Program-made: the position numbers and the translations under genes
Shown: positions 16,415 through 64,000 of the stretch, piece by piece
Layout of the letters: each line of letters opens with the position of its first letter
How positions within the stretch are numbered: position 1 is the first letter of the stretch
Notes under the pieces: model-generated
Database searches by the model: none
Told to the model about the DNA's origin: nothing
What the model saw: the letters and a program-made list of their open reading frames with translations, nothing else
Origin: Arenicola marina
Taxonomy: Eukaryota > Annelida > Polychaeta > Arenicolidae
Reading direction: 5' to 3'
Length of the DNA stretch: 64,000 bases
Assembly: GCA_964019135.1 (NCBI GenBank)
Contig: OZ025255.1
Location: 496,001 to 560,000 of the forward strand

Positions 16415-16514
16415 AAAACAAGAAGAAAATTGTAAAATGAAACTAGCAGAAATAAGGAGAGAGGAATTGAGCAAAACAGACCCTGATATCAAGGAGAAAT
16501 TGCATCTCTTAGAG
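16415..16514 (+). CDS. KNL1: KNL1-like exon (coiled coil), first one recognised
   Basis: The acceptor is TTTTCAG and the donor GTATGT. It encodes KQEENCKMKLAEIRREEL and on to HLLE, which is highly charged and helix-like. The first base completes a codon begun in an unseen upstream exon. Three further degenerate copies of its end plus donor follow in the intron. Confidence 0.6.
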
Positions 16515-19500
16515 GTATGTATACAGTATGCATGATGCATAAAGAAATATCTACATCTCTTAGAGGTATGTGTAGATTCTGCCATATGCAAAGAGAAGAA
16601 GGTACCTACATCTCTCAAAGGTATGCTGTGTAATGCATGAAGAAGATTCTTCTCTTAGAGGTATGTATTGAGTCAGTATAATGCAGTACAGTTCCAACTC
16701 TTTTGTGCTCCTCTAATTTTCTAGAAAATTTCTTTGTTCTTAATATTTTCCAAGGATTATATGAAATATATGATTGGTTGTTATATTGTTAGATATCTCT
16801 TTGATGTGTGTACATGATTGGAACTTCATCTGGGATAAAAGCAAATAAGGTGGAATTGCATCTTTGAAATCAATGCGTTCAAGGCTATTCTTCTGGCTTA
16901 ATTGTTATTTGTTATGTTATGTGAATGTTATTTTATGTTTCAATGGTTATGTTGTCAGCCTCTATTATAGTTCTTAATAAGCCAAAACTGTGTTTAACTG
17001 TTTTTTTGTGTGTATTAAACCAGCTCATTGAGGTCAAAATGTGTTTGACATGCATTGCTATTGAGAAAAATAAATTGTTTTATTGCAGAATCAATATGCT
17101 AAGCTGAAGTATGACTTTCAAGCGCAGCAGGCCAACTGGTATGTCCTGGAGACTCTGGATGACGGGCGGATCCCGTCAGTTGAGGAGTCAGGTAATCCAT
17201 GTCACAGCTCCCGCCAGGGTCAGTGGGATTGGCTTGTCTTCCAAGGTAAACGGTGTCTGTATAATAGATTTATCTTCGTAGCCATGTTAACGGCAATTGT
17301 CGAAGTCTGATGCCTGAGACTACCGGTATGTTGGCCTTGATTCAGCACCTGTACGTTTACTGATATTGCCTGCTGCAGAATATGATACTCGCCATCGCAT
17401 CACTTGTATGATTGGGTGCCTTTTGTCCAGCCATGGCTGACTGAACGTTCGTCGTGTCTTCCAGCCCTTGATCTCCAGAGGGGTTCCACCACACTGAGCG
17501 AGCTCCGCGACCAGCTCAGTGACTCCAGATCCAGCATTGAGCAGCTTGCGGACTCTACCCAGGCCTGTGAGTAATACCCCCCACTCTACCCAGGTCTGTG
17601 AGTAATACCCCCCACTCTACCCAGGCCTGTGAGTAATACCCCCCACTCTACCCAGGCCTGTGAGTAATACCCCCCACTCTACCCAGGTCTGTGAGTAATA
17701 CTCCCCACTCTACCCAGGCCTGTGAGTAATACCCCCACTCTACCCAGGCCTGTGAGTAATACCCCCCACTCTACCCAGACCTGTGAGTAATACCCCCCAC
17801 TCTACCCAGGCCTGTGAGTAATACCCCCCACTCTACCCAGGCCTGTAAGTAATACCCCCCACTCTACCCAGGCCTGTGAGTAATACCCCCCACTCTACCC
17901 AGGCCTGTGAGTAATACCCCCCACTCTACCCAGGCCTGTGAGTAATACCCCCCACTCTACCCAGGCATGTGAGTAATACCCCCCACCCTACCCAGGCCTG
18001 TGAGTAATACCCCCACTCTACCCAGGCCTGTGAGTAATACCCCCCACTCTACCCAGGCCTGTGAGTAATACCCCCCACTCTACCCAGGCCTGTGAGTAAT
18101 ACCCCCACTCTACCCAGGCCTGTGAGTAATACCCCCACTCTACCCAGGCCTGTGAGTAATACCCCCACTCTACCCAGGCCTGTGAGTAATACCCCCCACT
18201 CTACCCAGGCCTGTGAGTAATACCCCCCACTCTACCCAGGCCTGTGAGTAAAACCCACTACTCTACCCAGGCCTGTAAGTAATACCCCCCACTCTACCCA
18301 GGCCTGTGAGTAATACCCCCCACTCTACCCAGGCCTGTGAGTAATACCCCCCACTCTACCCAGGCCTGTAATTAATACCCCCCACTCTACCCAGGTCTGT
18401 GAGTAATACCCCCCACTCTACCCAGGCCTGTGAGTAATACCCCCACTCTACCCAGGTCTGTGAGTAATACCCCCCACTCTACCCAGGCCTGTGAGTAATA
18501 CCCCCACTCTACCCAGGCCTGTGAGTAATACCCCCCACTCTACCCAGGTCTGTGAGTAATACCCCCCACTCTACCCAGGCCTGTGAGTAATACCCCCCAC
18601 TCTACCCAGGCCTGTGAGTAATACCCCCCACTCTACCCAGGTCTGTGAGTAATACTCCCCACTCTACCCAGGCCTGTGAGTAATACCCCCACTCTACCCA
18701 GGCCTGTGAGTAATACCCCCCACTCTACCCAGACCTGTGAGTAATACCCCCCACTCTACCCAGGCCTGTGAGTAATACCCCCCACTCTACCCAGGCCTGT
18801 AAGTAATACCCCCCACTCTACCCAGGCCTGTGAGTAATACCCCCCACTCTACCCAGGCCTGTGAGTAATACCCCCCACTCTACCCAGGCCTGTGAGTAAT
18901 ACCCCCCACTCTACCCAGGCCTGTGAGTAATACCCCCCACTCTACCCAGGCCTGTGAGTAATATCCCCCACTCTACCCAGGCCTGTGAGTAATACCCCCA
19001 CTCTACCCAGGCCTGTGAGTAATACCCCCCACTCTACCCAGGCCTGTGAGTAATACCCCCACTCTACCCAGGCCTGTGAGTAATACCCCCCACTCTACCC
19101 AGGCCTGTGAGTAATACCCCCCACTCTACCCAGGCCTGTGAGTAAAACCCACTACTCTACCCAAGCCTGTAAGTAATACCCCCCACTCTACCCAGGCCTG
19201 TGAGTAATACCCACCACTCTACCCAGGCCTGTGAGTAATACCCCCCACTCTACCCAGGCCTGTAATTAATACCCCCCACTCTACCCAGGTCTGTGAGTAA
19301 TACCCCCCACTCTACCCAGGCCTGTGAGTAATACCCCCACTCTACCCAGGTCTGTGAGTAATACCCCCCACTCTACCCAGGCCTGTGAGTAATACCCCCA
19401 CTCTACCCAGGCCTGTGAGTAATACCCCCCACTCTACCCAGGTCTGTGAGTAATACCCCCCACTCTACCCAGGCCTGTGAGTAATACCCCCCACTCTACC

Positions 19501-22500
19501 CAGGCCTGTAAGTAATACCCCCCACTCTACCCAGGCCTGTGAGTAATACCCCCTACTCTACCCAGGCCTGTAAGTAATACCCCCCACTCTACCCAGGCCT
19601 GTGAGTAATACCCCCACTCTACCCAGGCCTGTGAGTAATACCCCCCACTCTACCCAGGTCTGTGAGTAATACCCCCCACTCTACCCAGGCCTGTGAGTAA
19701 TACCCCCCACTCTACCCAGACCTGTGAGTAATACCCCCCACTCTACCCAGGCCTGTGAGTAATACCCCCCACTCTACCCAGGCATGTGAGTAATACCCCC
19801 CACTCTACCCAGGCCTGTGAGTAATACCCCCCACTCTACCCAGGCCTGTGAGTAATACCCCCCACTCTACCCAGGCCTGTGAGTAATACCCCCCACTCTA
19901 CCCAGGCCTATGAGTAATACCCCCCACTCTACCCAGGCCTATGAGTAATACCCCCCACTCTACCCAGGCCTGTGAGTAATACCCCCCACTCTACCCAGGT
20001 CTGTGAGTAATACTCCCCACTCTACCCAGGCCTGTGAGTAATACCCCCACTCTACCCAGGCCTGTGAGTAATACCCCCCACTCTACCCAGACCTGTGAGT
20101 AATACCCCCCACTCTACCCAGACCTGTGAGTAATACCCCCCACTCTACCCAGGCCTGTGAGTAATACCCCCCACTCTACCCAGGCATGTAAGTAATACCC
20201 CCCACTCTACCCAGGCCTGTGAGTAATACCCCCCACTCTACCCAGGCCTGTGAGTAATACCCCCCACTCTACCCAGGCCTGTGAGTAATACCCCCCACTC
20301 TACCCAGGCCTGTGAGTAATACCCCCCACTCTACCTAGGCCTGTAAGTAATACCCCCCACTCTACCCAGGCCTGTAAGTAATACCCCCCACTCTACCCAG
20401 GCCTGTGAGTAATACCCCCCACTCTACCCAGGCCTGTGAGTAATACCCCCCACTCTACCCAGGCCTGTGAGTAATACCCCCCACTCTACCCAGGCCTGTG
20501 AGTAATACCCCCCACTCTACCCAGGCCTGTGAGTAATACCCCCCACTCTACCCAGGCCTGTGAGTAATACCCCCCACTCTACCCAGGCCTGTGAGTAATA
20601 CCCCCCACTCTACCTAGGCCTGTGAGTAATACCCCCCCACTCTACCCAGGCCTGTGAGTAATACCCCCCACTCTACCCAGGCCTGTGAGTAATACCCCCA
20701 CTCTACCCAGGCCTGTGAGTAATACCCCCACTCTACCCAGGCCTGTGAGTAATACCCCCACTCTACCCAGGCCTGTGAGTAATACCCCCCACTCTACCCA
20801 GGCCTGTGAGTAATACCCCCCACTCTACCTAGGCCTGTAAGTAATACCCCCCACTCTACCCAGGCCTGTAAGTAATACCCCCCACTCTACCCAGGCCTGT
20901 GAGTAATACCCCCCACTCTACCCAGGCCTGTGAGTAAACCCCCCTACTTTACCCAGGCCTGTAAGTAATACCCTCCACTCTACCCAGGCCTGTGTGTAAT
21001 ACCCCCCGCTCTACCCAGGCCTGTGAGTAATACCCCCCACTCTACCCAGGCCTGTAAGTAATACCCCCCACTCTACCCAGGCCTGTAAGTAATACCCCCC
21101 ACTCTACCCAGGCCTGTAAGTAATACCCCCCACTCTACCCAGGCCTGTGAGTAATACCCCCCACTCTACCCAGGCCTGTGAGTAATACCCCCCACTCTAC
21201 CCAGGCCTGTGAGTAATACCCCCCACTCTACCCAGGCATGTAAGTAATACCCCCCACTCTACCCAGGCCTGTAAGTAATACCCCCCACTCTACCCAGGCC
21301 TGTGAGTAATACCCCCCACTCTACCCAGGCCTGTGAGTAATACCCCCCACTCTACCCAGGCCTGTGAGTAATACCCCCCACTCTACCCAGGCCTGTGAGT
21401 AATACCCCCCACTCTACCCAGGCCTGTGAGTAATACCCCCCACTCTACCCAGGCCTGTGAGTAATACCCCCACTCTACCCAGGCCTGTGAGTAATACCCC
21501 CCACTCTACCCAGGCCTGTGAGTAATACCCCCCACTCTACCCAGGCCTGTGAGTAATACCCCCCACTCTACCTAGGCCTGTAAGTAATACCCCCCACTCT
21601 ACCCAGGCCTGTGAGTAATACCCCCCACTCTACCCAGGCCTGTGAGTAATACCCCCCACTCTACCCAGGCCTGAGTAATACCCCCCACTCTACCCAGGCC
21701 TGTGAGTAATACCCCCCACTCTACCCAGGCCTGTGAGTAATACCCCCCACTCTACCCAGGCCTGTGAGTAATACCCCCCACTCTACCCAGGCCTGTGAGT
21801 AATACCCCCCACTCTACCCAGGCCTGTGAGTAATACCCCCCACTCTACCCAGGCCTGTAAGTAATACCCCCCACTCTACCCAGGCCTGTAAGTAATACCC
21901 CCCACTCTACCCAGGCTTGTGAGTAATACCCCCCACTCTACCCAGGCTTGTGAGTAATACCCCCCACTCTACCCAGGCCTGTGAGTAATACCCCCCACTC
22001 TACCCAGGCCTGTGAGTAATATCCCCCACTCTACCCAGGCCTGTGAGTAATACCCCACTCTACCCAGGCCTGTGAGTAATACCCCACTCTACCCAGGCCT
22101 GTGAGTAATACCCCCCACTCTACCCAGGCCTGTGAGTAATACCCCCCACTCGTCTCGGGTGCCTGTAATAGCCGGAGAGTTAGGCTGTCGTAAATAGACA
22201 GTAAATATTACTCGAGCAACTTCCCGTTGAAGTTATCCCATCACAGGGATGGAGGTGTATAAACACATAACTGTTATCTGGACACCGGTATGTGTCAAAA
22301 TGTTTAGAACTTGTTTCTATTGCGTTGGTATTCGTACTTGCAGTGTTTGAGGAATACAAGAGCCTCAGAGCAGCAGTGGACCAACTGGTACAAGGAACAA
22401 AGGTCAAGGTAAGTCCACAGTGCGAAATCCGGGTTCTAATAATTTTATCTTAATGCTGACCGTCGCCTTTGTTTAGGTCAGATTTCGATACCGATACATG

Positions 22501-25500
22501 CCTGGTAACTGCGAGTCTCAGGACAATAACCAGCCCAGTTGGCTCAGCGACTGTGTCCTCCAGAGACAGGCCATGGTGCCGTGTGTCCTGTATAACCGTG
22601 TAACTTATGTCCTGTGCTGTGCCCTCCAGAGACAGGCCATGGTGCCGTGTGTCCTGTATGACGGTGTAACTTATGTCCTGTGCTGTGTCCTCCAGAGACA
22701 GGCCATGGTGCCGTGTGTCCTGTATAACGTGTAACGTATGTCCTGTGCTGTGGCATCCAGAGACAGGCCATGGTGCCGTGTGTCCTGTATAACCGTGTAA
22801 CTTATGTCCTGTGCTGTGTCCTCCAGGGACAGGCCATGGTGCCGTGTGTCCTATATAACCGTGTAACGTATGTCCTGTGCTGTGTCCTCCAGAGACAGGC
22901 CATGGTGCCGTGTGTCCTGTATAACGTGTAACGTATGTCCTGTGCTGTGCCATCCAGAGACAGGCCATGGTGCCGTGTGTCCTGTATAACCGTGTAACGT
23001 ATGTCCTGTGCTGTGCCATCCAGAGACAGGCCATGGTGCCGTGTGTCCTGTATAACCGTGTAACTTATGTCCTGTGCTGTGTCCTCCAGGGACAGGCCAT
23101 GGTGCCGTGTGTCCTATATAACCGTGTAACGTATGTCCTGTGCTGTGCCCTCCAGAGACAGGCCATGGTGCCGTGTGTCCTATATAACCGTGTAACGTAT
23201 GTCCTGTGCTGTGCCCTCCAGGGACAGGCCATGGTGCCGTGTGTCCTATATAACCGTGTAACGTATGTCCTGTGCTGTGCCCTCCAGAGACAGACCATGG
23301 TGCCGTGTGTCTTATATAACGGTGTAACTTATGTCCTGTGCTGTGCCCTCCAGAGACAGGCCATGGTGCCGTGTGTCCTATATAACCGTGTAACGTATGT
23401 CCTGTGCTGTGCCCTCCAGAGACAGGCCATGGTGCCGTGTGTCCTATATAACCGTGTAACGTATGTCCTGTGCTGTGCCCTCCAGGGACAGGCCATGGTG
23501 CCGTGTGTCCTGTATAACCGTGTAACGTATGTCCTGTGCTGTGCCCTCCAGAGACAGGCCATGGTGCCGTGTGTCCTATATAACCGTGTAACGTATGTCC
23601 TGTGCTGTGCCATCCAGAGACAGGCCATGGTGCCGTGTGTCCTATATAACCGTGTAACGTATGTCCTGTGCTGTGCCATCCAGAGACAGGCCATGGTGCC
23701 GTGTGTCCTGTATAACCGTGTAACGTATGTCCTGTGCTGTGCCATCCAGAGACAGGCCATGGTGCCGTGTGTCCTGTATAACCGTGTAACTTATGTCCTG
23801 TGCTGTGCCCTCCAGAGACAGACCATGGTGCCGTGTGTCCTGTATAACCGTGTAACTTATGTCCTGTGCTGTGCCCTCCGGAGACAAGCCATGGTGCCGT
23901 GTGTCCTGTATAACCGTGTAACTTATGTCCTGTGCTGTGTCCTCCAGAGACAGACCATGGTGCCGTGTGTCCTGTATAACCGTGTAACTTATGTCCTGTG
24001 CTGTGCCCTCCGGAGACAAGCCATGGTGCCGTGTGTCCTGTATAACCGTGTAACGTATGTCCTGTGCTGTGCCCTCCGGAGACAGGCCATGGTGCCGTGT
24101 GTCCTGTATAACCGTGTAACTTATGTCCTGTGCTGTGCCCTCCGGAGACAGGCCATGGTGCCGTGTGTCCTGTATAATCGTGTAACTTATGTCCTGTGCT
24201 GTGCCCTCCAGGGACAGGCCATGGTGCCGTGTGTCCTGTATAACCGTGTAACTTATGTCCTGTGCTGTGCCCTCCGGAGACAGGCCATGGTGCCGTGTGT
24301 CCTGTATAACCGTGTAACTTATGTCCTGTGCTGTGTCCTCCAGAGACAGCGCCTCGCCGACCTGTGCGATGAGGTGAACAATCTGCTGCAACACGATGAC
24401 ACTGGAGAGTCGGTGAGTGAGGCATGATTGACATAAAAGGAAAGTACGAATTAATCGGTCACCATCAGCCAGTCCGTAAATCTCTAAGCGATTTCTCCAA
24501 TGTTACCATAGATATCAGCCAAAACATCTGTGAACGGCATTCATAAATGTGATTCCATGCGCAACGTAGAATGTCATAAACGTGTGGGGCAGGCCGGTGT
24601 AGGATGTCATAGAGTGGGTGAGAGGCTAGTGTAGGATGTCATAGAATGAGTGACAGGCTAGTGTAGAATGTCAGAGCGTGGGGCAGGCCGGTGTACGATG
24701 TCAGAAAGGCTGACAGGCTAGTGTAGGATGTCATAGAGTGGGGTGGCAGGTTAGTGTAAGATGTCATAGAGCGTGAGGCAGGCGAGTGTAGGATGTCATA
24801 GAGTGGGTGACAGGCTAGTGTGGGATGTCATTGAGTGGGTGACAGGCTAGTGTAGGATGTCATAGAGCGTGAGGCAGGCCGGTGTAGGATGTAATAGAAA
24901 GGGTGACAGGCTAGTGTAGGATGTCATAGAGTGGGGTGGTAGGCTAATGTAGGATGTCATAGATTGGGGTGACAGGCTAGTGTAGGATGTCATAGAGCGT
25001 GAGGCAGGCCGGTGTAGGATGTAATAGAAAGGGTGGCAGGCTAGTGTAGGATGTCATAGAGTGGGTGACAGGCTAGTGTAGGATGTCATAAAGTGGGTGA
25101 CAGGCTAATGTAGGATGTCATAGAGTGGGTGACAGGCTAGTGTAGGATGTCATAGAGTAGGTGACAGGCTAGTGTAGGATGTCATAGTGGGTGACAAGCC
25201 AGTGTAATATGTCATAGATTGGGGTGACAGGCTAGTGTAGGATGTCATAGATTGGGGTGACAGGCCTGTGTAGGATGTCATAGAGTGGGGTGACAGGCTG
25301 GTGTAAGATGTCGGAGTGAGTGATAGGCTAGTGTAGGATGTCACCGAGTGGGTGACAGGCTAGTGTAGGATGTCAGAGTGAGTGGCAGACCAGTGTAGGA
25401 TGTCATAAAGTGGTGTGGCAGGCTAGTGTAGGATATCATAAAGTGGGTGACAGGCTAGCGTAAGATGTCATAGATTGGGTGACAGGCTAGTGCAGGATGT

Positions 25501-28500
25501 GCTGGAGTTGGTGGCAGGCGAGTGTAGGATGTTATAGAGTGGGTGGCAGGCTAGTGTAGGATGTCACAGAGTGGGTGACAGGCTAGTGTAGGATGTCATA
25601 GAGTGAGTGGCAGACCAGTGTAGGATGTCATAGAGTGAGTGGCAGGCCAGTGTAGGATGTCATAGAGTGGATGACAGCCCTGTGTAGGATGTCATAGAGT
25701 GGGGTGACAGGCTAGCGTAAGATGTCATAGAGTGGGTGACAGGCTAGTGTAGGATGTCATAGAGTTGGGTGGCAGGCTAGTGTAGGATGTGCTGGAGTTG
25801 GGGGCAGGCGAGTGTAGGATGTTATAGAGCGGGTGGCAGGCTAGTGTAGGATGTCATAGAGTGAGGTGGCAAGCTATAGTAGGGTGTCACAGAGTGGGTG
25901 ACGGGTTAGTGTAGGATGTCATAGAGTGGGTGGCAGGTCTGTAGGATGTCATAGAGTGGGTGACAGGCCAGTGTAGGATGTCACAGAGTGGGTGGCAGGC
26001 CAGTGTAGGATGTCATAGAGTTGGATGACAGGCTAGTGTACGATGTCATAGAGTGGGTGACAGGCTGGTGTAGGATGTCATAGTGGGTGACAGGCTAGTG
26101 TAGGGTGTCATAGAGTGGGTGACAAGCCAGTGTAATATGTCATAGATTGGGGTGACAGGCTAGTGTAGGATGTCATAGATTGGGGTGACAGCCCTGTGTA
26201 GGATGTCATAGAGTGGGGTGACAGGCTAGTGTAGGATGTCACAGAGTGAGTGATAGGCTAGTGTAGGATGTCACAGAGTGGGTGACAGGCTAGTGTAGGA
26301 TGTCATAGAGTGAGTGGCAGACCAGGGTAGGATGTCATAAAGCGGTGTGGCAGGCTGGTGTAGGATGTCATAAAGTGGGTGACAGGCTAGCGTAGGATGT
26401 CATAGATTGGGTGACAGGCTATTGCAGGATGTGCTGGAGTTGGTGACAAGCCAGTGTAATATGTCATAGATTGGGGTGACAGGCTAGTGTAGGATGTCAT
26501 AGATTGGGGTGACAGCCCTGTGTAGGATGTCATAGAGTGGGGTGACAGGCTAGTGTAAGATGTCAGAGTGAGTGATAGGCTAGTGTAGGATGTCACAGAG
26601 TGGGTGACAGGCTAGTGTAGGATGTCATAGAGTGAGTGGCAGACCAGGGTAGGATGTCATAAAGTGGTGTGGCAGGCTGGTGTAGGATGTCATAAAGTGG
26701 GTGACAGGCTAGCGTAGGATGTCATAGATTGGGTGACAGGCTAGTGCAGGATGTGCTGGAGTTGGTGGCAGGCTAGTGTAGGATGTCACAGAGTGGGTGA
26801 CAGGCTAGTGTAGGATGTCATAGAGTGAGTGGCTGGCCAGTGTAGAATGTCATAGAATGGATGACAGCCCTGTGTAGGATGTCACAGAGTGGGTGACAGG
26901 CTAGTGTAGGATGTCATAAAGTGGTGTGGCAGGCTAGTGTAGGATGTCATAAAGTGGTGTGGCAGGCTAGTGTAGGATGTCATAGAGTGGGGTGACAGGC
27001 CAGTGTAATATGTCATAGATTGGGGTGACAGGCTAGTGTAGGATGTCATAGATTGAGGTGACAGGCCTGTGTAGCATGTCATAGAGTGGATGACAGCCCT
27101 GTGTAGGATGTCATAGAGTGGGGTGACAGGCTGGTGTAAGATGTCAGAGTGAGTGATAGGCTAGTGTAGGATGTCACCGAGTGGGTGACAGGCTAGTGTA
27201 GGATGTCACAGAGTGAGTGGCAGACCAGTGTAGGATGTCATAAAGTGGTGTAGCAGGCTAGTGTAGGATGTCATAAAGTGGTGTGGCAGGCTAGTGTAGG
27301 ATGTCAGAGTGGGGTGACAGGCCAGTGTAGGATGTCATAGAGTGGGTGACAGGCTAGCGTAAGATGTCATAGAGTGGGTGACAGGCTAGTGTAGGATGTC
27401 ATAAAGTGGTGTGGCAGGCTAGTGTAAGATGTCATAAAGTGGTGTGGCAGGCTAGTGTAGGATGTCAGAGTGGGGTGACAGGCCAGTGTAGGATGTCATA
27501 GAGTGGGTGACAGGCTAGCGTAAGATGTCATAGAGTGGGTGACAGACTAGTGTAGGATGTCATAGAGTTGGGTGGCAGGCTAGTTTAGGATGTGCTGGAG
27601 TTGGTGGCAGGCGAGTGTAGGATGTTATAGAGCGGGTGGCAGGCTAGTGTAGGATGTCATTGAGTGAGTGATAGGCTAGTGTGGGATGTCATAGAGTGGG
27701 TGACAGGCTAGTGTAGGATGTCATAGAGTGGGTGACAGGCTAGTGTAGGATGTCATAGAATGGGGTGACAGGCTAGTGTAGGATGTCATAGAGTGAGTGG
27801 CAGACCAGTGTAGGATGTCATAAAGTGGTGTGGCAGGCTAGTGTAGGATGTCATAAAGTGGGTGACAGGCTAGCGTAAGATGTCATAGATTGGGTGACAG
27901 GCTAGTGCAGGATGTGCTGGAGTTGGTGGCAGGCGAGTGAAGGATGCTATAGAGTGGGTGGCAGGCTAGTGTAGGATGTCACAGAGTGGGTGACAGGCTA
28001 GTGTAGGATGTCATAGAGTGAGTGGCAGACCAGTGTAGGATGTCATAGAGTGAGTGGCAGGCCAGTGTAGGATGTCATAGAGTGGATGACAGCCCTGTGT
28101 AGGATGTCATAGAGTGGGGTGACAGGCTAGCGTAAGATGTCATAGAGTGGGTGACAGGCTAGTGTAGGATGTCATAAAGTGGTGTGGCAGGCTAGTGTAG
28201 GATGTCATAAAGTGGTGTAGCAGGCTAGTGTAGGATGTCATAGAGTGGGGTAGCAGGCCAGTGTAGGATGTCATAGAGTGGGTGACAGGCTAGCGTAAGA
28301 TGTCATAGAGTGGGTGACAGGCTAGTGTAGGATGTCATAGAGTTGGGTGGCAGGCTAGTGTAGGATGTCATAAAGTGGTGTGGCAGCCTAGTGTAGGATG
28401 TCATATAAAGTGGTGTGGCAGGCTAGTGTAGGATGTCATAGAGTGGGGTGACAGGCCAGTGTAGGATGTCATAGAGTGGGTGACAGGCTAGCGTAAGATG

Positions 28501-40135: not shown

Positions 40136-40157
40136 CCGGACACCAACATCTCGTCAC

Positions 40158-43150: not shown

Positions 43151-43152
43151 CA

Positions 43153-43304
43153 CTACGTAGACGACGCGGACTTGGCATGCTCCCTGCCAGGTTTGTTTCC
43201 GTCCACCGGTCTGCCTTCCTCTGGCTGGTTCCCTGGCTCGGCCCCCTGCGCCTTCAAACTGCCGCCAGTGCGCTCTAAGATTTCCGCCATCGTGAATGAC
43301 TCGC
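43153..43304 (-). CDS. POLG: POLG terminal exon
   Basis: The acceptor is TTGCAG. It encodes [20 protein letters not shown], aligned with the end of POLG, then a hydrophilic tail of about 25 residues ending KSASST and TAG at 43155-43153. Confidence 0.9.
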
Positions 43305-52300: not shown

Positions 52301-55300
52301 GAAAAGGATTTGCCGAAACCCTTTTCCGACTAACCTTTTGTGAAACAGAAAATTGAAAAAGGGAAAATTTTGCTTTTATAATGTTCAGAAGCAAAAGGAA
52401 AAACGAATAAACGGTATATCCAGGGATTTCTTTGTATATCTCCGTTGTATAAAAAAGTATGACCACCCGAATGAAGAGCATATGAGGCGGTTTGGTGTTT
52501 GTTTGTCCAATATGTTTGAGTTGAGAGGTGGCAGTGATTACAGAATATGGGTGTACGCACGCCGCCAGCCACGAGCTGGGGCTCCAGCGCCTTGCTGATC
52601 TGACAGCCCAGCACCGGGGTCAGTGATTAGACAGTGTGGGTGTACGCACGTCGCCAGCCACGTGCTGGGGCTCCAGCGCCTTGGTGATCTGACAGCCCAG
52701 CACCGGGGTCAGTGATTAGACAGTGTGGGTGTACGCACGTCCCCAGCCACGTGCTGGGGCTCCAGCTCCTTGCTGATCTAACAGCCCAGCACCGGGGTCA
52801 GTGATTAGACAGTGTGGGTGTACGCACGTCACCAGCCACGTGCTGGGGCTCCAGCGCCTTGCTGATCTGACAGCCCAGCACCGGGGTCAGTGATTAGACA
52901 GTGTGGGTGTACGCACGTCACCAGCCACGTGCTGGGGCTCCAGCGCCTTGCTGATCTGACAGCCCAGCACCGGGGTCAGTGATTAGACAGTGTGGGAGTA
53001 CGCACGTCGCCAGCCACGTGCTGGGGCTCCAGCGCCTTGCTGATCTGACAGCCCAGCACCGGGGTCAGTGATTAGACAGTGTGGGTGTACGAACGTCACC
53101 AGCCACGTGCTGGGGCTCCAGCGCCTTGCTCATCTGACAGCCCAGCACCGGGGTCAGTGATTAGACAGTGTGGGTGTACGCACGTCGCCAGCCACGTGCT
53201 GGGGCTCCAACGCCTTGCTGATCTGACAGCCCAGCACCGGGGTCAGTGATTAGACAGTGTGGGTGTACGCACGTCACCAGCCACGTGCTGGGGCTCCAGC
53301 GCCTTGGTGATCTGACAGCCCAGCACCGGGGTCAGTGATTAGACAGTGTGGGTGTACGCACGTCGCCAGCCACGTGCTGGGGCTCCAGCGCCTTGCTGAT
53401 CTGACAGCCCAGCACCGGGGTCAGTGATTAGACAGTGTGGGTGTGGGTGTACGCACGTCGCCAGCCACGTGCTTGGGCTCCAGCGCCTTGCTGATCTGAC
53501 AGCCCAGCACCGGGGTCAGTGATTAGACAGTGTGGGTGTACGCACGTCGCCAGCCACGTGCTTGGGCTCCAACGCCTTGCTGATCTGACAGCCCAGCACC
53601 GGGGTCAGTGATTAGACAGTGTGGGTGTACGCACGTCACCAGCCACGTGCTTGGGCTCCAGCGCCTTGCTGATCTGACAGCCCAGCACCGGGGTCAGTGA
53701 TTAGACAGTGTGGGTGTACGCACGTCGCCAGCCACGTGCTTGGGCTCCAGCGCCTTGCTGATCTGACAGCCCAGCACCGGGGTCAGTGATTAGACAGTGT
53801 GGGTGTACGCACGTCACCAGCCACGTGCTTGGGCTCCAGCGCCTTGCTGATCTGACAGCCCAGCACCGGGGTCAGTGATTAGACAGTGTGGGTGTACGCA
53901 CGTCACCAGCCACGTGCTGGGGCTCCAGCGCCTTGCTGATCTGACAGCCCAGCACCGGGGTCAGTGATTAGACAGTGTGGGTGTACGCACGTCGCCAGCC
54001 ACGTGCTTGGGCTCCAGCGCCTTGCTGATCTGACAGCCCAGCACCGGGGTCAGTGATTAGACAGTGTGGGTGTACGCACGTCACCAGCCACGTGCTGGGG
54101 CTCCAGCGCCTTGCTGATCTGACAGCCCAGCACCGGGGTCAGTGATTAGACAGTGTGGGTGTACGCACGTCGCCAGCCACGTGCTTGGCCTCCAGCGCCT
54201 TGGTGATCTGACAGCCCAGCACCGGGGTCAGTGATTAGACAGTGTGGGTGTACGCACGTCACCAGCCACGTGCTGGGGCTCCAGCGCCTTGCTCATCTGA
54301 CAGCCCAGCACCGGGGTCAGTGATTAGACAGTGTGGGTGTACGCACGTCGCCAGCCACGTGCTTGGGCTCCAGCGCCTTGGTGATCTGACAACCCAGCAC
54401 CGGGGTCAGTGATTAGACAGTGTGGGTGTACGCACGTCACCAGCCACGTGCTTGGGCTCCAGCGCCTTGCTGATCTGACAGCCCAGCACCGGGGTCAGTG
54501 ATTAGACAGTGTGGGTGTGGGTGTACGCACGTCACCAGCCACGTGCTGGGGCTCCAGCGCCTTGCTGATCTGACAGCCCAGCACCGGGGTCAGTGATTAG
54601 ACAGTGTGGGTGTACGCACGTCGCCAGCCACGTGCTTGGGCTCCAGCGCCTTGGTGATCTGACAGCCCAGCACCGGGGTCAGTGATTAGACAGTGTGGGT
54701 GTACGCACGTCGCCAGCCACGTGCTTGGGCTCCAGCGCCTTGGTGATCTGACAGCCCAGCACCGGGGTCAGTGATTAGACAGTGTGGGTGTACGCACGTC
54801 GCCAGCCACGTGCTTGGGCTCCAGCGCCTTGGTGATCTGACAGCCCAGCACCGGGGTCAGTAATTAGACAGTGTGGGTGTACGCACGTCGCCAGCCACGT
54901 GCTTGGGCTCCAGCGCCTTGGTGATCTGACAGCCCAGCACCGGGGTCAGTGATTAGACAGTGTGGGTGTGGGTGTACGCACGTCGCCAGCCACGTGCTTG
55001 GGCTCCAGCGCCTTGCTGATCTGACAGCCCAGCACCGGGGTCAGTGATTAGACAGTGTGGGTGTGGGTGTACGCACGTCACCAGCCACGTGCTTGGGCTC
55101 CAACGCCTTGCTGATCTGACAGCCCAGCACCGGGGTCAGTGATTAGACAGTGTGGGTGTGGGTGTACGCACGTCACCAGCCACGTGCTGGGGCTCCAGCG
55201 CCTTGCTGATCTGACAGCCCAGCACCGGGGTCAGTGATTAGACAGTGTGGGTGTACGCACGTCACCAGCCACGTGCTGGGGCTCCAGCGCCTTGCTGATC

Positions 55301-58300
55301 TGACAGCCCAGCACCGGGGTCAGTGATTAGACAGTGTGGGTGTACGCACGTCGCCAGCCACGTGCTTGGGCTCCAGCGCCTTGGTGATCTGACAGCCCAG
55401 CACCGGGGTCAGTGATTAGACAGTGTGGGTGTGGGTGTACGCACGTCACCAGCCACGTGCTGGGGCTCCAGCGCCTTGCTGATCTGACAGCCCAGCACCG
55501 GGGTCGTGGGGCACTTCGACGTCGCAATCTCCTCCAGCTTGTTGAACATGGCCGACTCACTACAAACACAGATAGTACTGGCATTAACGACACAGTCAAC
55601 AACCTACAGAGGCCTATTAACGTTAAGGCGCCACTCGTTGACGAGAGCTCCTTCCCCAGGCCGGTTAAGGCGCCACTCGGTGACGAGAGCTCCTTCCCCA
55701 GGCCGGTTAAGGCGCCACTCGGTGACGAGAGCTCCTTCCCCAGGCCGGTTAAGGCGCCACTCGTTGACGAGAGCTCCTTCCCCAGGCCGGTTAAGGCGCC
55801 ACTCGGTGGCAAGAGCTCCTTCCCCAGGCCGGTTAAGGCGCCACTCGGTGACGAGAGCTCCTTCCCCAGGCCGGTTAAGGCGCCATTCGGTGACGAGAGC
55901 TCCTTCCCCAGGCCGGTTAAGGTGCCACTCGGTGACGAGAGCACCCTTCCCAGGCCGGTTAAGGCGCCACTCGTTGACGAGAACTCCTTCCTCAGGCCGG
56001 TTAAGGCGCCATTCGGTGACGAGAGCTCCTTCCCCAGGCCGGTTAAGGTGCCACTCGGTGACGAGAGCACCCATCCCAGGCCGGTTAAGGCGCCACTCGT
56101 TGACGAGAGCTCCTTCCCCAGGTCAGTTAAGGTGCCACTCGGTGACGAGAGCACCCTTCCCAGGCCGGTTAAGGCGCCACTCGTTGACGAGAGCACCCTT
56201 CCCAGGCCGGTTAAGGCGCCACTCGTTGACGAGAGCTCCTTCCCCAGGCCAGTTAAGGCGCCATTCGGTGACGAGAGTTCCTTCCCCAGGCCGGTTAAGG
56301 CGCCACTCGGTGACGAGAGCTCCTTGGCCAGGCCGGTTAAGGCGCCACTCGTTGACGAGAGCTCCTTCCCCAGGCCGGTTAAGGCGCCACTCGGTGACGA
56401 GAGCTCCTTCCCCAGGCCGGTTAAGGCGCCACTCGGTGACGAGAGCTCCTTGCCCAGGCCGGTTAAGGCGCAACTCGGTGACGAGAGCTCCTTCCCCAGG
56501 CCGGTTAAGGCGCCACTCGGTGACGAGAGCACCTTCCCCAGGCCGGTTAAGGCGCCACTCGTTGACGAGAGCTCCTTCCCCAGGCCGGTTAAGGCGCCAC
56601 TCGGTGACGAGAGCTTCTTGCCCAGGCCGGTTAAGGCGCCACTCGGTGACGAGAGCTCCTTCCCCAGGCCGGTTAAGGCGCCACTCGGTGACGAGATTTA
56701 ACAAATGTGAATATGTAATCACGAGATAAATGAAATTTAATTAGGAGAGTATACTGACAATATAAGCGATCTTATTGACGGTTGTCTGTTGAGAAGCCGG
56801 TGATGCTCCTACCTGCCTCCCTCCCATTTACTGACAGGGTCCTTGCCTTCAGCCACCTCCTCTTGGCTGCAACATAGAGACACGTAATATAGACAGAGGT
56901 AATTGTTATCAATGTAACGGTCTCACAATGTGCAAGACAGGCAGATGTAATTGTTATCAATGTAACGGTCTCACAATGAGCAAGACAGACAGATGTAATT
57001 GCTATCAATGTAACGGTCTCACAATGTGCAAGACAGACAGATGTAATTGTTATCAATGTAACGGTCTCACAATGTGCAAGACAGACAGAGGTAATTGTTA
57101 TCAATGTAACGGTCTCACAATGTGCAAGACAGACAAATGTAATTGCTATCAATGTAACGGTCTCACAATGTGCAAGACAGACAGATGTAACTGTTATCAA
57201 TGTAAAGGTATCACAATGTGCAAGACAGACAGATGTAATTGCTATCAATGTAACGGTCTCACAATGTGCAAGACAGACAGATGTAATTGTTATCAATGTA
57301 AAGGTATCAAAATGTGCAAGACAGACAGAGGTAATTGCTATCAATGTAACGGTCTCACAATGTGCAAGACAGACAGATGTAATTGCTATCAATGTAACGG
57401 TATCACAATGTGCAAGACAGACAGATGTAATTGTTATCAATGCAACGGTCTCACAATGAGCAAGACAGACAGATGTAATTGCTATCAATGTAACGGTCTC
57501 ACAATGTGCAAGACAGACAGATGTAATTGCTATCAATGTAAAGGTATCAAAATGTGCAAGACAGACAGATGTAATTGCTATCAATGTAACGGTCTCACAA
57601 TGTGCAAGACAGACAGATGTAATTGCTATCAATGTAACGGTCTCACAATGTGCAAGACAGACAGATGTAATTGCTATCAATGTAACGGTCTCACAATGTG
57701 TAAAACAGACAGATGTAATTGTTATCAATGTAAAGGTATCAAAATGTGCAAGACAGACAGATGTAATTTTTATCAATGTAACGGTCTCACAATGTGCAAG
57801 ACAGACAGATGTAATTGCTATCAATGTAACGGTATCACAATGTGCAAGACAGACAGATGTAATTGTTATCAATGCAACGGTCTCACAATGTGCAAGACAG
57901 ACAGATGTAATTGCTATCAATGTAACGGTCTCACAATGTGCAAGACAGACAGATGTAATTGCTATCAATGTAACGGTCTCACAATGTGCAAGACAGACAG
58001 ATGTAATTGCTATCAATGTAACGGTCTCACAATGTGCAAGACAGACAGAGGTAATTGTTATCCATGTAACGGTCTCACAATGTGCAAGACAGACAGAGGT
58101 AATTGCTATCAATGCAACGGTCTCACAATGTGCAAGACAGACAGATGTAATTGTTATCAATGTAACGGTCTCACAATGTGCAAGACAGACAGAGGTAATT
58201 GTTATCAATGTAACGGTCTCACAATGTGCAAGACAGACAAATGTAATTGTTATCAATGCAACGGTATCACAATGTGCAATACAGACAGATGTAATTGTTA

Positions 58301-61273
58301 TCAATGTAACGGTCTCACAATGTGCAAGACAGACAGAGGTAATTGTTATCAATGTAACGGTCTCACAATGTGCAACACAGACAAATGTAATTGTTACCAA
58401 TGCAACGGTCTCACAATGTGCAAGACAGACAGATGTAATTGCTATCAATGTAACGGTCTCACAATGAGCAAGACAGACAGATGTAATTGCTATCAATGTA
58501 ACGGTCTCACAATGTGCAAGACAGACAGAGGTAATTGTTATCAATGTAACGGTCTCACAATGTGCAAGACAGACAGAGGTAATTGCTATCAATGTAACGG
58601 TCTCACAATGTGCAAGACAGACAGATGTAATTGTTATCAATGTAACGGTCTCACAATGTGCAAGACAGATGTAATTGTTATCAATGTAACGGTCTCACAA
58701 TGTGCAAGACAGACAAATGTAATTGTTATCAATGTAACGGTCTCACAATGTGCAAGATAGACAGATGTAATTGCTATCAATGTAACGGTCTCACAATGTG
58801 CAAGACAGGCAGATGTAATTGTTATCCATGTAACGGTCTCACAATGTGCAAGACAGACAGATGTAATTGCTATCAATGTAACGGTCTCACAATGTGCAAG
58901 ACAGACAGATGTAATTGCTATCAATGTAACGGTCTCACAATGTGCAAGACAGACAGAGGTAATTGTTATCAATGCAACGGTCTCACAATGTGCAAGACAG
59001 ACAGATGTAATTGTTATCAATGTAACGGTCTCACAATGTGCAAGACAGATGTAATTGTTATCAATGTAACGGTCTCACAATGTGCAAGACAGACAAATGT
59101 AATTGTTATCAATGTAACGGTCTCACAATGTGCAAGATAGACAGATGTAATTGCTATCAATGTAACGGTCTCACAATGTGCAAGACAGGCAGATGTAATT
59201 GTTATCCATGTAACGGTCTCACAATGTGCAAGACAGACAGATGTAATTGCTATCAATGTAACGGTCTCACAATGTGCAAGACAGACAGATGTAATTGCTA
59301 TCAATGTAACGGTCTCACAATGTGCAAGACAGACAGAGGTAATTGTTATCAATGCAACGGTCTCACAATGTGCAAGACAGACAGATGTAATTGCTATCAA
59401 TGTAACGGTCTCACAATGTGCAAGACAGACAGAGGTAATTGTTATCCATGTAACGGTCTCACAATGTGCAAGACAGACAGAGGTAATTGCTATCAATGCA
59501 ACGGTATCACAATGTGCAAGACAGACAGATGTAATTGTTATCAATGTAACGGTCTCACAATGTGCAAGACAGACAGAGGCAATTGTTATCAATGCAACGG
59601 TCTCACAATGTGCAAGACAGACAGATGTAATTGCTATCAATGCAACGGTCTCACAATGTGCAAGACAGACAGATGTAATTGCTATCAATGTAACGGTCTC
59701 ACAATGTGCAAGACAGACAGAGGTAATTGTTATCCATGTAACGGTCTCACAATGTGCAAGACAGACAGAGGTAATTGCTATCAATGCAACGGTATCACAA
59801 TGTGCAAGACAGACAGATGTAATTGTTATCAATGTAACGGTCTCACAATGTGCAAGACAGACAGAGGTAATTGTTATCAATGTAACGGTCTCACAATGTG
59901 CAAGACAGACAGATGTAATTGTTATCAATGTAACGGTCTCACAATGTGCAAGACAGACAGATGTAATTGCTATCAATGTAACGGTCTCACAATGTGCAAG
60001 ACAGACAAATGTAATTGTTATCAATGCAACGGTATCACAATGTGCAATACAGACAGATGTAATTGTTATCAATGTAACGGTCTCACAATGTGCAAGACAG
60101 ACAGAGGTAATTGTTATCAATGTAACGGTCTCACAATGTGCAACACAGACAAATGTAATTGTTACCAATGCAACGGTCTCACAATGTGCAAGACAGACAG
60201 ATGTAATTGCTATCAATGTAACGGTCTCACAATGTGCAAGACAGACAGATGTAATTGCTATCAATGTAACGGTCTCACAATGTGCAAGACAGGCAGATGT
60301 AATTGTTATCAATGCAACGGTATCACAATGTGCAAGACAGACAGATGTAATTGTTATCAATGTAACGGTTTCACAATGTGCAAGACAGACAGATGTAATT
60401 GCTATCAATGTAAAGGTCTCACAATGTGCAAGACAGACAGAGGTAATTGCTATCAATGCAACGGTATCACAATGTGCAAGACAGACAGAGGTAATTGTTA
60501 TCAATGTAACGGTCTCACAATGTGTAAAACAGACAGAGGTATTTGCTATCAATGTAACGGTCTCACAATGTGCAAGACAGACAAATGTAATTGTTATCAA
60601 TGCAACGGTCTCACAATGTGCAAGACAGACAGATGTAATTGCTATCAATGTAACGGTCTCACAATGTGCAAGACAGACAGAGGTAATTGTTATCAATGCA
60701 ACGGTCTCACAATGTGCAAGACAGACAGATGTAATTGCTATCAATGTAACGGTCTCACAATGTGCAAGACAGACAGAGGTAATTGTTATCAATGTAACGG
60801 TCTCACAATGTGCAAGACAGACAGATGTAATTGTTATCAATGCAACGGTCTCACAATGTGCAAGACAGACAGAGGTAATTGCTATCAATGTAACGGTCTC
60901 ACAATGTGTTGTCCATGTTACCGTTGAAGACAACAGAGGATTGTTCCGATCCATTATACCAAGTGCCAAGGTTTCACGTTCTGGCTTTTTTTTTTTCAAG
61001 ATTGTCCTTGCTGTATCAGGTGACCATTTACATGTGAAGCATTTGGGAAGCTCTTTAAGACATAACATGTGTATTTACAAAAGTCTGATTAGCTCTGACA
61101 GTTGGTCTCATCACCTACCTCAAGTGACGGCGCGTTCGTCTGCCCTTGGTGGACTCGTACATGACCTTGGCCTTGCTCTTAGCCTCATGTGACGTCAGCC
61201 GGTGGTTGAACTGCCGCAGCAGCTGCTCGGCGAACCGCACGCCCGCGCCGTATATACGGCCGTAGTTAAACAC
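43153..61273 (-). CDS. POLG: DNA polymerase gamma catalytic subunit, C-terminal 281 residues, six exons
   Basis: Exons in transcript order: 61273-61119, 56866-56813, 55559-55445, 48078-47827, 46624-46507, 43304-43153. They join in frame with GT-AG introns to 281 codons plus TAG. This is the polymerase palm and fingers of the family A mitochondrial replicase. It starts at the O-helix motif [11 protein letters not shown] (motif B), continues with [32 protein letters not shown] and [14 protein letters not shown], then motif C HDEVRY with the catalytic Asp, [36 protein letters not shown] and TPSNPHGL. Length and order match the last quarter of vertebrate POLG closely. The C-terminal tail is longer and Gly/Pro/Glu/Lys-rich. 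The exonuclease, spacer and motif A exons should lie right of 64000. The enzyme replicates mtDNA in the mitochondrial matrix. Confidence 0.96.
43355..45350 (-). repeat. 53-bp intronic minisatellite (CCCCAGTAACGTAACTTGTC)
   Basis: About 37 copies. The unit length equals that of the adjoining array at 45351-46530, and parts of the unit (CCCCAGTAxCGTAA) are shared, so the two are probably one array that diverged into two families. Confidence 0.95.
45351..46530 (-). repeat. 53-bp minisatellite containing POLG exon end and donor
   Basis: On the - strand each of about 22 units has GGGCTACGGCCTTCCCCACG followed by GTACGGTCAGAGGG. This copies the end of the exon at 46507 (GGGTACGGCATCCTCCACG|GTAGGTCAGAGGG). 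There is no stop in any of the three - strand frames, so the exon frame stays open down to 45134. Confidence 0.93.
46507..46624 (-). CDS. POLG: POLG exon ([18 protein letters not shown])
   Basis: Acceptor TTTTGCAG, donor GTAGGT. It encodes [31 protein letters not shown] and GYGILH. Strongly conserved POLG residues. Confidence 0.95.
46655..47790 (-). repeat. 24-bp intronic minisatellite (CAGCCACCAGCCTCACAGAG)
   Basis: Fills the intron between 46624 and 47827. ATCC/ACCC variants alternate, and a shorter unit lacking CACCAGC occurs. It produces long spurious ORFs on both strands. Confidence 0.93.
47827..48078 (-). CDS. POLG: POLG exon with motif C (HDEVRY)
   Basis: Acceptor TTTCAG, donor GTGAGT. 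Exactly 84 codons: [20 protein letters not shown] at the start, SIHDEVRY at exon residues 41-48 (the catalytic Asp codon is 47949-47947), and [17 protein letters not shown] at the end. This is the best-conserved part of the palm. Confidence 0.97.
48105..48953 (-). repeat. 33-bp-family intronic minisatellite, left part
   Basis: Units such as ACTATTGTATACACCGTCAC plus CATTACACTA or CACTAAACTATAT, in several lengths. Confidence 0.93.
48954..49393. repeat. Inverted duplicate of 50515-50914
   Basis: Near-perfect reverse complement of the right-hand segment, including the first part of a fold-back arm (CTTTTATAATGTTCAGAAGC), about 330 bp of unique intron, and a few array units in reversed orientation. 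The orientation switch is abrupt at 49393/49394. Confidence 0.9.
49394..50545 (-). repeat. 33-bp intronic minisatellite, right part
   Basis: About 35 copies of CATTACACTACATACTATTG plus TATACACCATCAC, head to tail and more homogeneous than the left part. Confidence 0.95.
50855..52426. mobile_element. Fold-back element with internal inverted tandem arrays
   Basis: Arms of about 280 bases (50855-51140 and 52110-52426) are imperfect inverted complements, ending in GGGATATACCGTTTATTCG and its complement. Inside lie an array of TATGGCTCCGGGC units (51140-51500) and, in inverted orientation, an array of GCCCGGAGTCATA units (51690-52080), separated by a segment of repeated CTCGC/GCGAG words. There is no transposase ORF. 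Confidence 0.85.
52427..52544 (-). other. Short unique intron segment of POLG
   Basis: Lies between the fold-back element and the last unit of the exon-derived array. Confidence 0.4.
52545..55510 (-). repeat. 89-bp minisatellite: 61 bp of POLG exon plus donor
   Basis: About 33 copies. Each contains on the - strand 61 coding bases ([14 protein letters not shown] and on to the donor) and then GTGCGTACACCC. Some units are 6 bp longer (extra GTGTGG). The full exon is present only at the high-coordinate end, 55559-55445. Confidence 0.96.
55445..55559 (-). CDS. POLG: POLG exon ([14 protein letters not shown]...TPVLGC)
   Basis: TTTGTAG acceptor. It encodes [32 protein letters not shown] and a short end. 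The donor given here (GTGCGT at 55444-55439) is the first of about 33, chosen because it directly follows the unique part of the exon and joins in phase to 48078. Confidence 0.93.
55622..56700 (-). repeat. 42-bp intronic minisatellite (GCGCCACTCGGTGACGAGAG)
   Basis: About 26 copies, 14 codons each, open in several frames. Lies between POLG exons 56813 and 55559 and does not include their borders. Confidence 0.95.
56813..56866 (-). CDS. POLG: POLG short exon ([17 protein letters not shown])
   Basis: Acceptor TTGCAG, donor GTAGGA, 54 bases. In phase it gives [17 protein letters not shown], leading to the conserved GG-[ST]-ES.MFNKLE of POLG with Ser in the variable place. Confidence 0.85.
56890..60915 (-). 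repeat. 48-bp intronic minisatellite (CAATGTGCAAGACAGACAGA)
   Basis: About 84 copies of 16 codons. On the + strand it reads as Cys-rich [16 protein letters not shown] repeats and on the - strand as [14 protein letters not shown]. It has a higher-order structure: about 58660-59038 recurs at 59040-59418 with offset 380. It fills the POLG intron 56867-61118. Confidence 0.95.
61119..61273 (-). CDS. POLG: POLG exon with O-helix motif B
   Basis: Encodes [36 protein letters not shown] and [10 protein letters not shown]. Donor GTAGGT. The acceptor GCCAG is the first (lowest-coordinate) of about 44 in the adjoining array, the only one followed by the full exon. The Tyr residues of the motif select and position the incoming dNTP in this family. 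Confidence 0.95.
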
Positions 61274-64000
61274 CTGGCGACCGAGCAACAGGTCCAGTCA
61301 TCACCTCAACCCGTATATACGGCCGTAGTTAAACAGTTAACACCTGGCGACCGAGCAACAGGTCCAGTCACCACCTCAACCCGTATATACGGCCGTAGTT
61401 AAACACCTAGCGACCGAGCAGCAGGTCCAGTCATCACCTCAACCGTATATACGGCTGTACTTAAACACCTGGCGACCGAGCAACAGGTCCAGTCATCACC
61501 TCAACCCGTATATACGGCCGTAGTTAAACACCTAGCGACCGAGCAACAGGTCCAGTCATCACCTCAACCCGTATATACGGCCGTAGCTAAACACCTGGCG
61601 ACCGAGCAACAGGTCCAGTCATCACCTCAACCCGTATATACGGCCGTAGTTAAACACCTGGCGACCGAGCAACAGGTCCAGTCATCACCTCAACCCGTAT
61701 ATACGGCCGTAGTTAAACACCTAGCGACCGAGCAACAGGTCCAGTCATCACCTCAACCCGTATATACGGCCGTAGTTAAACACCTAGCGACCGAGCAACA
61801 GGTCCAGTCATCACCTCAACCCGTATATACGGCCGTAGTTAAACACCTGGCGACCGAGCAACAGGTCCAGTCATCACCTCAACCCGTATATACGGCCGTA
61901 GTTAAACACCTGGCGACCGAGCAACAGGTCCAGTCATCACCTCAACCCGTATATACGGCCGTAGTCAAACACCTAGCGACCGAGCAACAGGTCCAGTCAT
62001 CACCTCAACCCGTATATACGGCCGTAGTTAAACACCTGGCGACCGAGAAACAGATCCAGTCATCAGCTCAACCCGTATATACGGCCGTAGTTAAACACCT
62101 GGCGACCGAGCAACAAGGTCCAGTCATCACCTCAACCCGTATATACGGCCGTAGTTAAACACCTGGCGACCGAGAAACAGGTCCAGTCATCACCTCAACC
62201 GGTATATACGGCCGTAGTTAAACACCTGGCGACCGTGCAACAGGTCCAGTCATCACCTCAACCCGTATATACGGCCGTAGTTAAACACCTAGCGACCGAG
62301 CAACAGGTCCAGTCATCACCTCAACCCGTAGATACGGCCGTAGTTAAACACCTAGCGACCGAGCAACAGGTCCAGTCATCACCTCAACCCGTAGATACGG
62401 CCGTAGTTAAACACCTAGCGACCGAGCAACAGGTCCAGTCATCACCTCAACCCGTATATACGGCCGTAGTTAAACACCTGGCGACCGAGCAACAGGTCCA
62501 GTCATCACCTCAACCCGTATATACGGCCGTAGTTAAACACCTAGCGACCGAGCAACAGGTCCAGTCATCACCTCAACCCGTAGATACGGCCGTAGTTAAA
62601 CACCTAGCGACCGAGCAACAGGTCCAGTCATCACCTCAACCCGTAGATACGGCCGTAGTTAAACACCTAGCGACCGAGCAACAGGTCCAGTCATCACCTC
62701 AACCCGTATATACGGCTGTAGTTAAACACCTGGCGACCGAGCAACAGGTCCAGTCATCACCTCAACCCGTATATACGGCCGTAGTTAAACACCTAGCGAC
62801 CGAGCAACAGGTCCAGTCATCACCTCAACCCGTATATACGGCCGTAGTTAAACACCTAGCGACCGAGCAACAGGTCCAGTCATCACCTCAACCGTATATA
62901 CGGCTGTACTTAAACACCTGGCGACCGAGCAACAGGTCCAGTCATCACCTCAACCCGTATATACGGCCGTAGTTAAACACCTAGCGACCGAGCAACAGGT
63001 CCAGTCATCACCTCAACCCGTATATACGGCCGTAGTTAAACACCTAGCGACCGAGCAGCAGGTCCAGTCATCACCTCAACCGTATATACGGCTGTACTTA
63101 AACACCTGGCGACCGAGCAACAGGTCCAGTCATCACCTCAACCCGTATATACGGCCGTAGTTAAACACCTAGCGACCGAGCAACAGGTCCAGTCATCACC
63201 TCAACCCGTATATACGGCCGTAGCTAAACACCTGGCGACCGAGCAACAGGTCCAGTCATCACCTCAACCCGTATATACGGCCGTAGTTAAACACCTGGCG
63301 ACCGAGCAACAGGTCCAGTCATCACCTCAACCCGTATATACGGCCGTAGTTAAACACCTAGCGACCGAGCAACAGGTCCAGTCATCACCTCAACCCGTAT
63401 ATACGGCCGTAGTTAAACACCTAGCGACCGAGCAACAGGTCCAGTCATCACCTCAACCCGTATATACGGCCGTAGTTAAACACCTGGCGACCGAGCAACA
63501 GGTCCAGTCATCACCTCAACCCGTATCTACGGCCGTAGTTAAACACCTGGCGACCGAGCAACAGGTCCAGTCATCACCTCAACCCGTATATACGGCCGTA
63601 GTCAAACACCTAGCGACCGTGCAACAGGTCCAGTCATCACCTCAACCCGTATATACGGCCGTAGTTAAACACCTAGCGACCGAGCAACAGGTCCAGTCAT
63701 CACCTCAACCCGTAGATACGGCCGTAGTTAAACACCTAGCGACCGAGCAACAGGTCCAGTCATCACCTCAACCCGTAGATACGGCCGTAGTTAAACACCT
63801 AGCGACCGAGCAACAGGTCCAGTCATCACCTCAACCCGTATATACGGCCGTAGTTAAACACCTGGCGACCGAGCAACAGGTCCAGTCATCACCTCAACCC
63901 GTATATACGGCCGTAGTTAAACACCTAGCGACCGAGCAACAGGTCCAGTCATCACCTCAACCCGTAGATACGGCCGTAGTTAAACACCTAGCGACCGAGC
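61240..64000 (-). repeat. 63-bp minisatellite containing POLG acceptor and exon start, runs off the edge
   Basis: About 43 copies within the window. On the - strand each unit has a TCGCCAG acceptor, 26 coding bases (VFNYGRIY codons) and then GTTGAGGTGATGACTGG. The exon frame reaches TGATGA in every unit, so upstream acceptors would truncate the polymerase. Confidence 0.96.

Follow-up and report, generated by a model that had tools for sequence, protein, structure and literature searches.

Minisatellites that span exon-intron junctions in POLG and a neighbouring gene of Arenicola marina, with further predicted cases elsewhere in the genome

Minisatellite-like duplications of exon-intron boundaries, on the donor or the acceptor side, are known from amphioxus, where they are called mirages; they occur in Adh3 and in two globin genes (BflGb6 and BflGb9), in which splicing is normal (PMC3087553), and also in the troponin C and PGBD5 genes (PMC3902484). 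According to the available parts of these reports the authentic copy is present in the gene and many units have the AG or GT intact, the globin and PGBD5 mirages comprise 2-7 copies of 60-160 bp, the Adh3 units measure 10-72 bp (PMC3087553, PMC3902484), and the Adh3 mirage shows somatic instability (PMC3087553). Internal tandem repeats at exon-intron boundaries are also described in the available text on human segmental duplications, with 27 intron modifications (PMC2812944), and that on earthworm metallothionein genes describes a minisatellite with units of around 180 bp in intron 1 (PMC12783039). The subject here is a window of 64,000 nucleotides from the Arenicola marina genome (C8:496001-560000, contig OZ025255.1), in which long arrays lie across splice junctions of two neighbouring genes, one of them POLG. 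The first-pass annotation of this DNA had pointed to comparable minisatellites, called mirages, in amphioxus Adh, and this was right.

It had also claimed that eight arrays each hold the end of an exon together with its real donor or acceptor, and this was borne out by Tandem Repeats Finder (TRF), which was used for array detection in the window, by exon models that were built by hand and then tested for frame, and by the measured overhangs (Table 1). TRF calls eight of the nine arrays noted at that time, the exception being the small repeat at 16503-16667, whose unit and intronic length were judged by eye; the overhang at POLG exon 61119-61273 was read from the sequence. A caveat applies to the two plus-strand acceptor arrays (exons E and I), where the part shared with the exon is just six bases. 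The mean identity between copies is 94-99% in the multi-copy arrays and a chance origin is excluded for these, which is a separate matter from whether their position is non-random. The units of the junction arrays in the window are unrelated to one another.

In structure these arrays agree with the mirages: exon and intron sequence across the junction is present in each unit, the unit length in the seven long junction arrays (31-89 bp) falls within the 10-160 bp of mirages, and an authentic junction and an intact frame are found in both genes. They differ, as far as the available parts of the amphioxus reports extend, in that seven long arrays, each with between 20 and 149 copies, occur in the window within portions of two adjacent genes. 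The human repeats are likewise minisatellites on exon-intron boundaries which alter gene structure, but those described in the available part of that report have units of 30 bp on average and four copies, belong to young paralogues and include some novel introns, whereas the arrays in the window are very long and the exons are kept (PMC2812944). The earthworm minisatellite is similar in being intronic and from an annelid, and is unlike the present arrays in that a splice junction within the unit is not mentioned in the available text (PMC12783039). Among the matches listed in the open-access literature there was no annelid mirage and no count across a whole genome, and the available parts of further amphioxus literature and of Daphnia tandem-repeat work held nothing on junction arrays. 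On present evidence the arrays in the window are structurally the same as amphioxus mirages, at higher copy number, in a different animal group and beyond two genes; in the literature covered, mirages under that name were reported just for a few amphioxus genes, and they are now seen in a genome outside that group.

That the host is not a cephalochordate, the taxon of the published mirages, is indicated by its mitochondrial gene order. In 2.5 kb of the mitochondrial contig (the last contig) trnF, trnE, trnP, trnT, nad4L, nad4, trnC and trnM lie on one strand, nad4L and nad4 being assigned from open frames; one ARAGORN setting adds a weak trnS inside nad4L. The order F-E-P-T-nad4L-nad4-C-M is annelid-type and unlike that of cephalochordates.

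Each additional copy in a junction array is a decoy splice site. In the seven long junction arrays the GT or AG is retained in 380 of 388 copies, the authentic copies being counted. Donor strength was scored as matches to a U1-type consensus. In three of the four donor arrays the decoys score about the same as the authentic site; in the array at POLG exon 46507-46624 they are weaker and the authentic strength is reached by 2 of 21. A premature in-frame stop is predicted from the use of 336 of the 373 decoys. An open in-frame product is predicted for 16 of 22 decoys at exon E and for 7 of 21 at POLG exon 46507-46624, the other 14 at the latter being open but out of frame. Long open frames run through these two arrays into the exon (500 amino acids at window 22925-24427 and 501 at 45134-46639), and decoy misuse there could therefore add repeat peptides. 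In the exon E array (23850-24349) five acceptor AGs have been lost, all within the last seven of the 27 decoys, near the authentic acceptor (Fisher P=0.0003); these losses look like a single variant that spread.

The first-pass annotation had further suggested a process reaching past the two genes, and samples from the rest of the genome agree with this. The assembly contains 867,369,267 bases in 762 contigs and, among the contigs looked at, 18 are of chromosome size. Thirty-six samples were chosen blind to content: 18 of ten kb (C1:1-10000 and 1.00-1.01 Mb of 17 others) and 18 of four kb from mid-chromosome. Long arrays, defined as having a unit of at least 10 bp, a length of at least 250 bp and at least four copies, turned up in one or more samples from every one of the 18 chromosome-size contigs. 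They cover a mean of 55% (median 51%) of the near-end ten-kb samples and 29% (median 24%) of the mid-chromosome samples (P=0.02 for the difference); the window itself lies in an array-rich zone half a megabase from the contig end. The genome is marked by a very large minisatellite share. Word sharing across samples linked just two array pairs among 58 arrays (samples and contig piece L019). The whole of the ten-kb samples L008, L010 and L018 is one array, and L015 is so nearly entirely.

Searching 88 array edges with room, and reading the sequence, yielded eight predicted junction arrays in these samples, on five other chromosomes, seven of them among the 58 arrays. Four are strong, each with a junction word of 12-16 bases that is present in between 12 and 35 exact copies, and four are weaker (Table 1). 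The exon adjoining the 77-bp array in L016 matches BAZ2B (PDB 7win, E 8.2e-06); the other seven are predicted from an open frame and the splice consensus. One of two frames is open in L025, where a third frame, by eye, gives a hydrophobic stretch. L006 presumably resembles a P5-type ATPase, PDB and Pfam searches with it being empty. Two arrays speak against junction spanning as a universal feature: the array in L040 lies away from its exons and a 26-bp array in L016 stops just short of an acceptor. A rate per junction is not given because a recognisable gene was lacking at most of the 58 arrays. Donor-like motifs were found in five of the 58 sampled units as against 1.76 in shuffles (P=0.03), a weak result because the motif set was self-chosen. 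Within an apparent exon, L013 2144-2438 carries a 63-bp array that keeps the frame (a 21-residue repeat), unlike the junction arrays. The predicted cases offer a natural test of splice-site choice among identical neighbours at several genes on different chromosomes.

The simplest account, and probably the correct one, is that minisatellites grow throughout the genome from randomly placed seeds that are tolerated, the exon-proximal splice site being the one used. Short tandem duplications would arise at many sites and then expand via slippage or unequal exchange. Coding sequence would be kept clear of arrays by selection, so that introns and flanks would fill with them. Where a duplication straddled an exon border, a complete exon and a working splice site would remain at the array edge nearest to the exon; such a duplication would therefore be tolerated and could reach 20-150 copies, each added copy carrying a decoy donor or acceptor. 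The exon-proximal copy would most likely be chosen by the spliceosome, because exon definition would pair the closest site on either side of the exon, and splicing would presumably be correct as a rule. Mis-splicing at decoys would mostly produce premature stops, followed by decay.

Alternatively, exon borders could be preferred sites of origin, through breaks or template switching tied to splicing, R-loops or steps in composition between exon and intron. A mechanism targeting exon borders had been proposed from the first reading of the sequence, and the tests run did not support it. Under the null model short introns received randomly placed seeds and overhang was allowed; 17 arrays were tested, a set without the 61248-64000 array (which runs off the window), the array in exon J and any array that is not intronic. 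Seven of the 17 span a border (eight counting the array that leaves the window) where 4.35 are expected (P=0.10). If the set is further reduced by the small array at 16503 and by the 13-bp array of a foldback element, six of 15 are observed and 4.17 expected (P=0.20), or 4.53 expected (P=0.28) after subtraction of the length of the element. The positions of the nine non-spanning arrays are uniform (Kolmogorov-Smirnov (KS) P=0.62), and the place of the junction within the unit is compatible with uniformity (n=7, P=0.81; n=14 with the blind-sample cases, P=0.15). A sense-strand G-rich bias, which R-loops might produce, was seen in 12 of 17 arrays, which is not significant (P=0.14). Furthermore, longer units span borders more often (P=0.02), as random seeding would predict from geometry. 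A number of observations nevertheless weigh against random, tolerated seeding. The null hinges on ancestral intron length: for the six of 15, P falls to 0.07, 0.03, 0.006 and 0.0007 if ancestral introns were 1.5, 2, 3 and 5 times their present single-copy length. In a rank test the 15 arrays show a tendency towards borders (P=0.07; two-sided KS 0.13). Copies are more alike in junction arrays than in other intronic arrays (P=0.005), something that tolerance alone would not lead one to expect, and the junction arrays look younger. A triple donor pattern, three copies of AGGTAAGT at a spacing of 28-58 bp, has 7362 matches in the genome on both strands as against 2773 for its reversed control (2.65 times); a second donor pattern was defined as AGGTGAGT and contributes no count. 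Finally, no long array is present in the first 16.4 kb of the window, in 6 of the 18 mid-chromosome samples or in one of the 18 ten-kb samples (L012), and growth is therefore uneven. Much of the triple-pattern total could be chance, and many of its matches share one array. Arrays counted by eye in the listed part of C1 number seven in 11.1 Mb as against six in 19.0 Mb for the control (0.63 and 0.32 per Mb, P=0.16), taking 606016-612276 as one donor array; taken as two, the total is eight. Given this clustering and the C1 counts, a donor excess of about twofold may exist and is not established. An origin at preferred borders seems unlikely. It can be entertained only tentatively that hundreds of genes bear long junction arrays together with a real border excess, with up to 150 near-identical donors to choose among; if true, the genome would be a natural experiment in donor choice by the spliceosome on a genome-wide scale. 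Two questions become testable at scale: do tandem duplications form preferentially at exon borders, and do junction arrays contribute to the lengthening or the gain of introns?

The remaining explanations are much less probable. The decoys might be functional, slowing or regulating splicing or yielding protein variants, as the keeping of GT and AG almost everywhere and the open in-frame products at exon E and POLG exon 46507-46624 could suggest; homogenisation of the arrays alone would however explain the high retention, most decoys would lead to a premature stop and the units are unrelated, and such a role is considered very improbable. It is slightly harder still to believe that the arrays or their copy numbers are errors of assembly. 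Long arrays are difficult to assemble and 200 N were present in two of the first 18 samples, but scattered variants distinguish the copies, near copies are often more alike, intact reading frames flank the arrays on both sides and arrays were sampled on every chromosome-size contig. Least credible is the possibility that the arrays are remnants of intron gain through tandem duplication of exon sequence, a model put forward for the amphioxus globins in the available text (PMC3087553). The intron at 43305-46506 is all array except for 46 bp, as would suit such an origin, but at least 82 bp is free of array in the other complete introns that bear one, and the nine non-spanning arrays show no similarity to any exon border beyond the array or its intronic edge. 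Growth from random, tolerated seeds is therefore preferred to these three.

Arrays occupy 83% of 16415-64000 and are present in 13 of the 14 introns fully inside the window, with or without a junction. The idea that the non-spanning arrays are decayed mirages was rejected, there being no exon-border similarity outside the arrays and their intronic edges. A ninth array had been said to amplify a coding exon, and it does indeed sit in the last exon J. Since one array reaches a stop codon and another lies within a last exon, arrays appear to fill tolerated space whether or not a splice site is included. Around the exon J array (window 39040-40185) the plus-strand protein has apparently acquired a different C terminus; the sequence after the last copy could have been the former C terminus.

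Table 1. Gene models, arrays and other elements; positions refer to the window unless a sample is named.
Feature	Position	Strand	Basis or remark
Plus-strand gene, ten exons A-J	16415..39059	+	single open frame of 400 amino acids, AG/GT at borders
Exons A-E	16415-16514, 17089-17191, 17465-17566, 22344-22408, 24344-24412	+	
Exons F-J	29647-29816, 30217-30397, 31676-31818, 36188-36356, 38958-39059 (stop)	+	
POLG, last six exons	43153..61273	-	single open frame of 281 residues
POLG exons	61119-61273, 56813-56866, 55445-55559, 47827-48078, 46507-46624, 43153-43304 (stop)	-	
Degenerate four-copy repeat with exon A end and donor	16503..16667	+	copies 51, 55 and 40 bp apart
149-copy, 31-bp array with 15 nt of exon C end and donor GTGAGT	17552..22151	+	TRF, exon model
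27-copy, 66-bp array with exon E acceptor and 6 nt of exon	22551..24349	+	TRF, exon model
20-copy, 55-bp array with 46 nt of exon H and donor GTAGGT	31773..32879	+	TRF, exon model
93-copy, 33-bp array with exon I acceptor and 6 nt of exon	33190..36193	+	TRF, exon model
22-copy, 53-bp array with 26 nt of POLG exon 46507-46624 and donor	45352..46532	-	TRF, exon model
33-copy, 89-bp array with 61 nt of POLG exon 55445-55559 and donor GTGCGT	52532..55505	-	TRF, exon model
63-bp array, at least 42 copies, with 26 nt of POLG exon 61119-61273 and acceptor	61248..64000	-	reaches window end
157-copy, 32-bp intronic array, no junction	24566..29593	+	TRF
21-bp array, no junction, begins 14 bp into intron after exon F	29831..30098	+	TRF
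29-bp array, no junction, begins 12 bp into intron after exon G	30410..31228	+	TRF
135-copy, 18-bp intronic array, no junction, begins 26 bp into intron after exon I	36383..38821	+	TRF
16-copy, 73-bp array inside last exon J, stop supplied by second copy	38972..40137	+	TRF
Array in presumed POLG 3' untranslated region, reaching stop codon	42339..43153	-	TRF, exon model
53-bp intronic array, no junction	43350..45350	-	TRF
24-bp intronic array, no junction	46662..47781	-	TRF
33-bp intronic array, no junction, 26 bp from acceptor	48105..50547	-	TRF
Foldback-type element in POLG intron, inverted arms 94 and 158 nt (87%), own 13-bp array	50854-52428		
42-bp intronic array, no junction	55622..56696	-	TRF
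48-bp intronic array, no junction, 24 bp from acceptor	56891..60908	-	TRF
Predicted, strong: 77-bp donor unit	L016 (C18) 7084-10000		35 exact copies
Predicted, strong: 61-bp donor unit	L011 (C11) 1-1729		23 exact copies
Predicted, strong: 84-bp acceptor unit	L013 (C13) 1-1362		16 exact copies
Predicted, strong: 71-bp acceptor unit	L006 (C6) 4501-5352		12 exact copies
Predicted, weaker: 29-bp donor unit	L016 2471-2769		3 exact copies
Predicted, weaker: 56-bp acceptor unit	L025 (C1) 1926-2244		3 exact copies
Predicted, weaker: decayed 43-bp donor repeat	L013 1505-1798		2 exact copies, most donors lost; opposite side of exon beside 84-bp array
Predicted, weaker: 15-bp donor repeat	L016 about 5100-5150		three copies, under array cut-off

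The identity of the two genes was examined by searches with their predicted products. The minus-strand product matched human POLG (PDB 8d33) with E 1.2e-94 in a query that was still without the small exon 56813-56866, and there were 478 homologues at E 0.001 or better; judged by this similarity the gene is certainly POLG. The plus-strand gene had been taken as KNL1-like, and this was not confirmed: searches of Pfam, the PDB and the protein collection with the predicted protein gave no match to KNL1. These empty results do not disprove KNL1, because proteins of much greater length are left out by the protein search. An upstream open reading frame at 2-580 of the window had no homologue, the window gave no tRNA with ARAGORN, and a phage search and two Rfam searches at the gathering threshold were likewise empty. 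In a region without long minisatellites, window 4648-12566 contains a tandem duplication of around 3.9-4.0 kb in two copies, whose aligned blocks are 85-100% alike.

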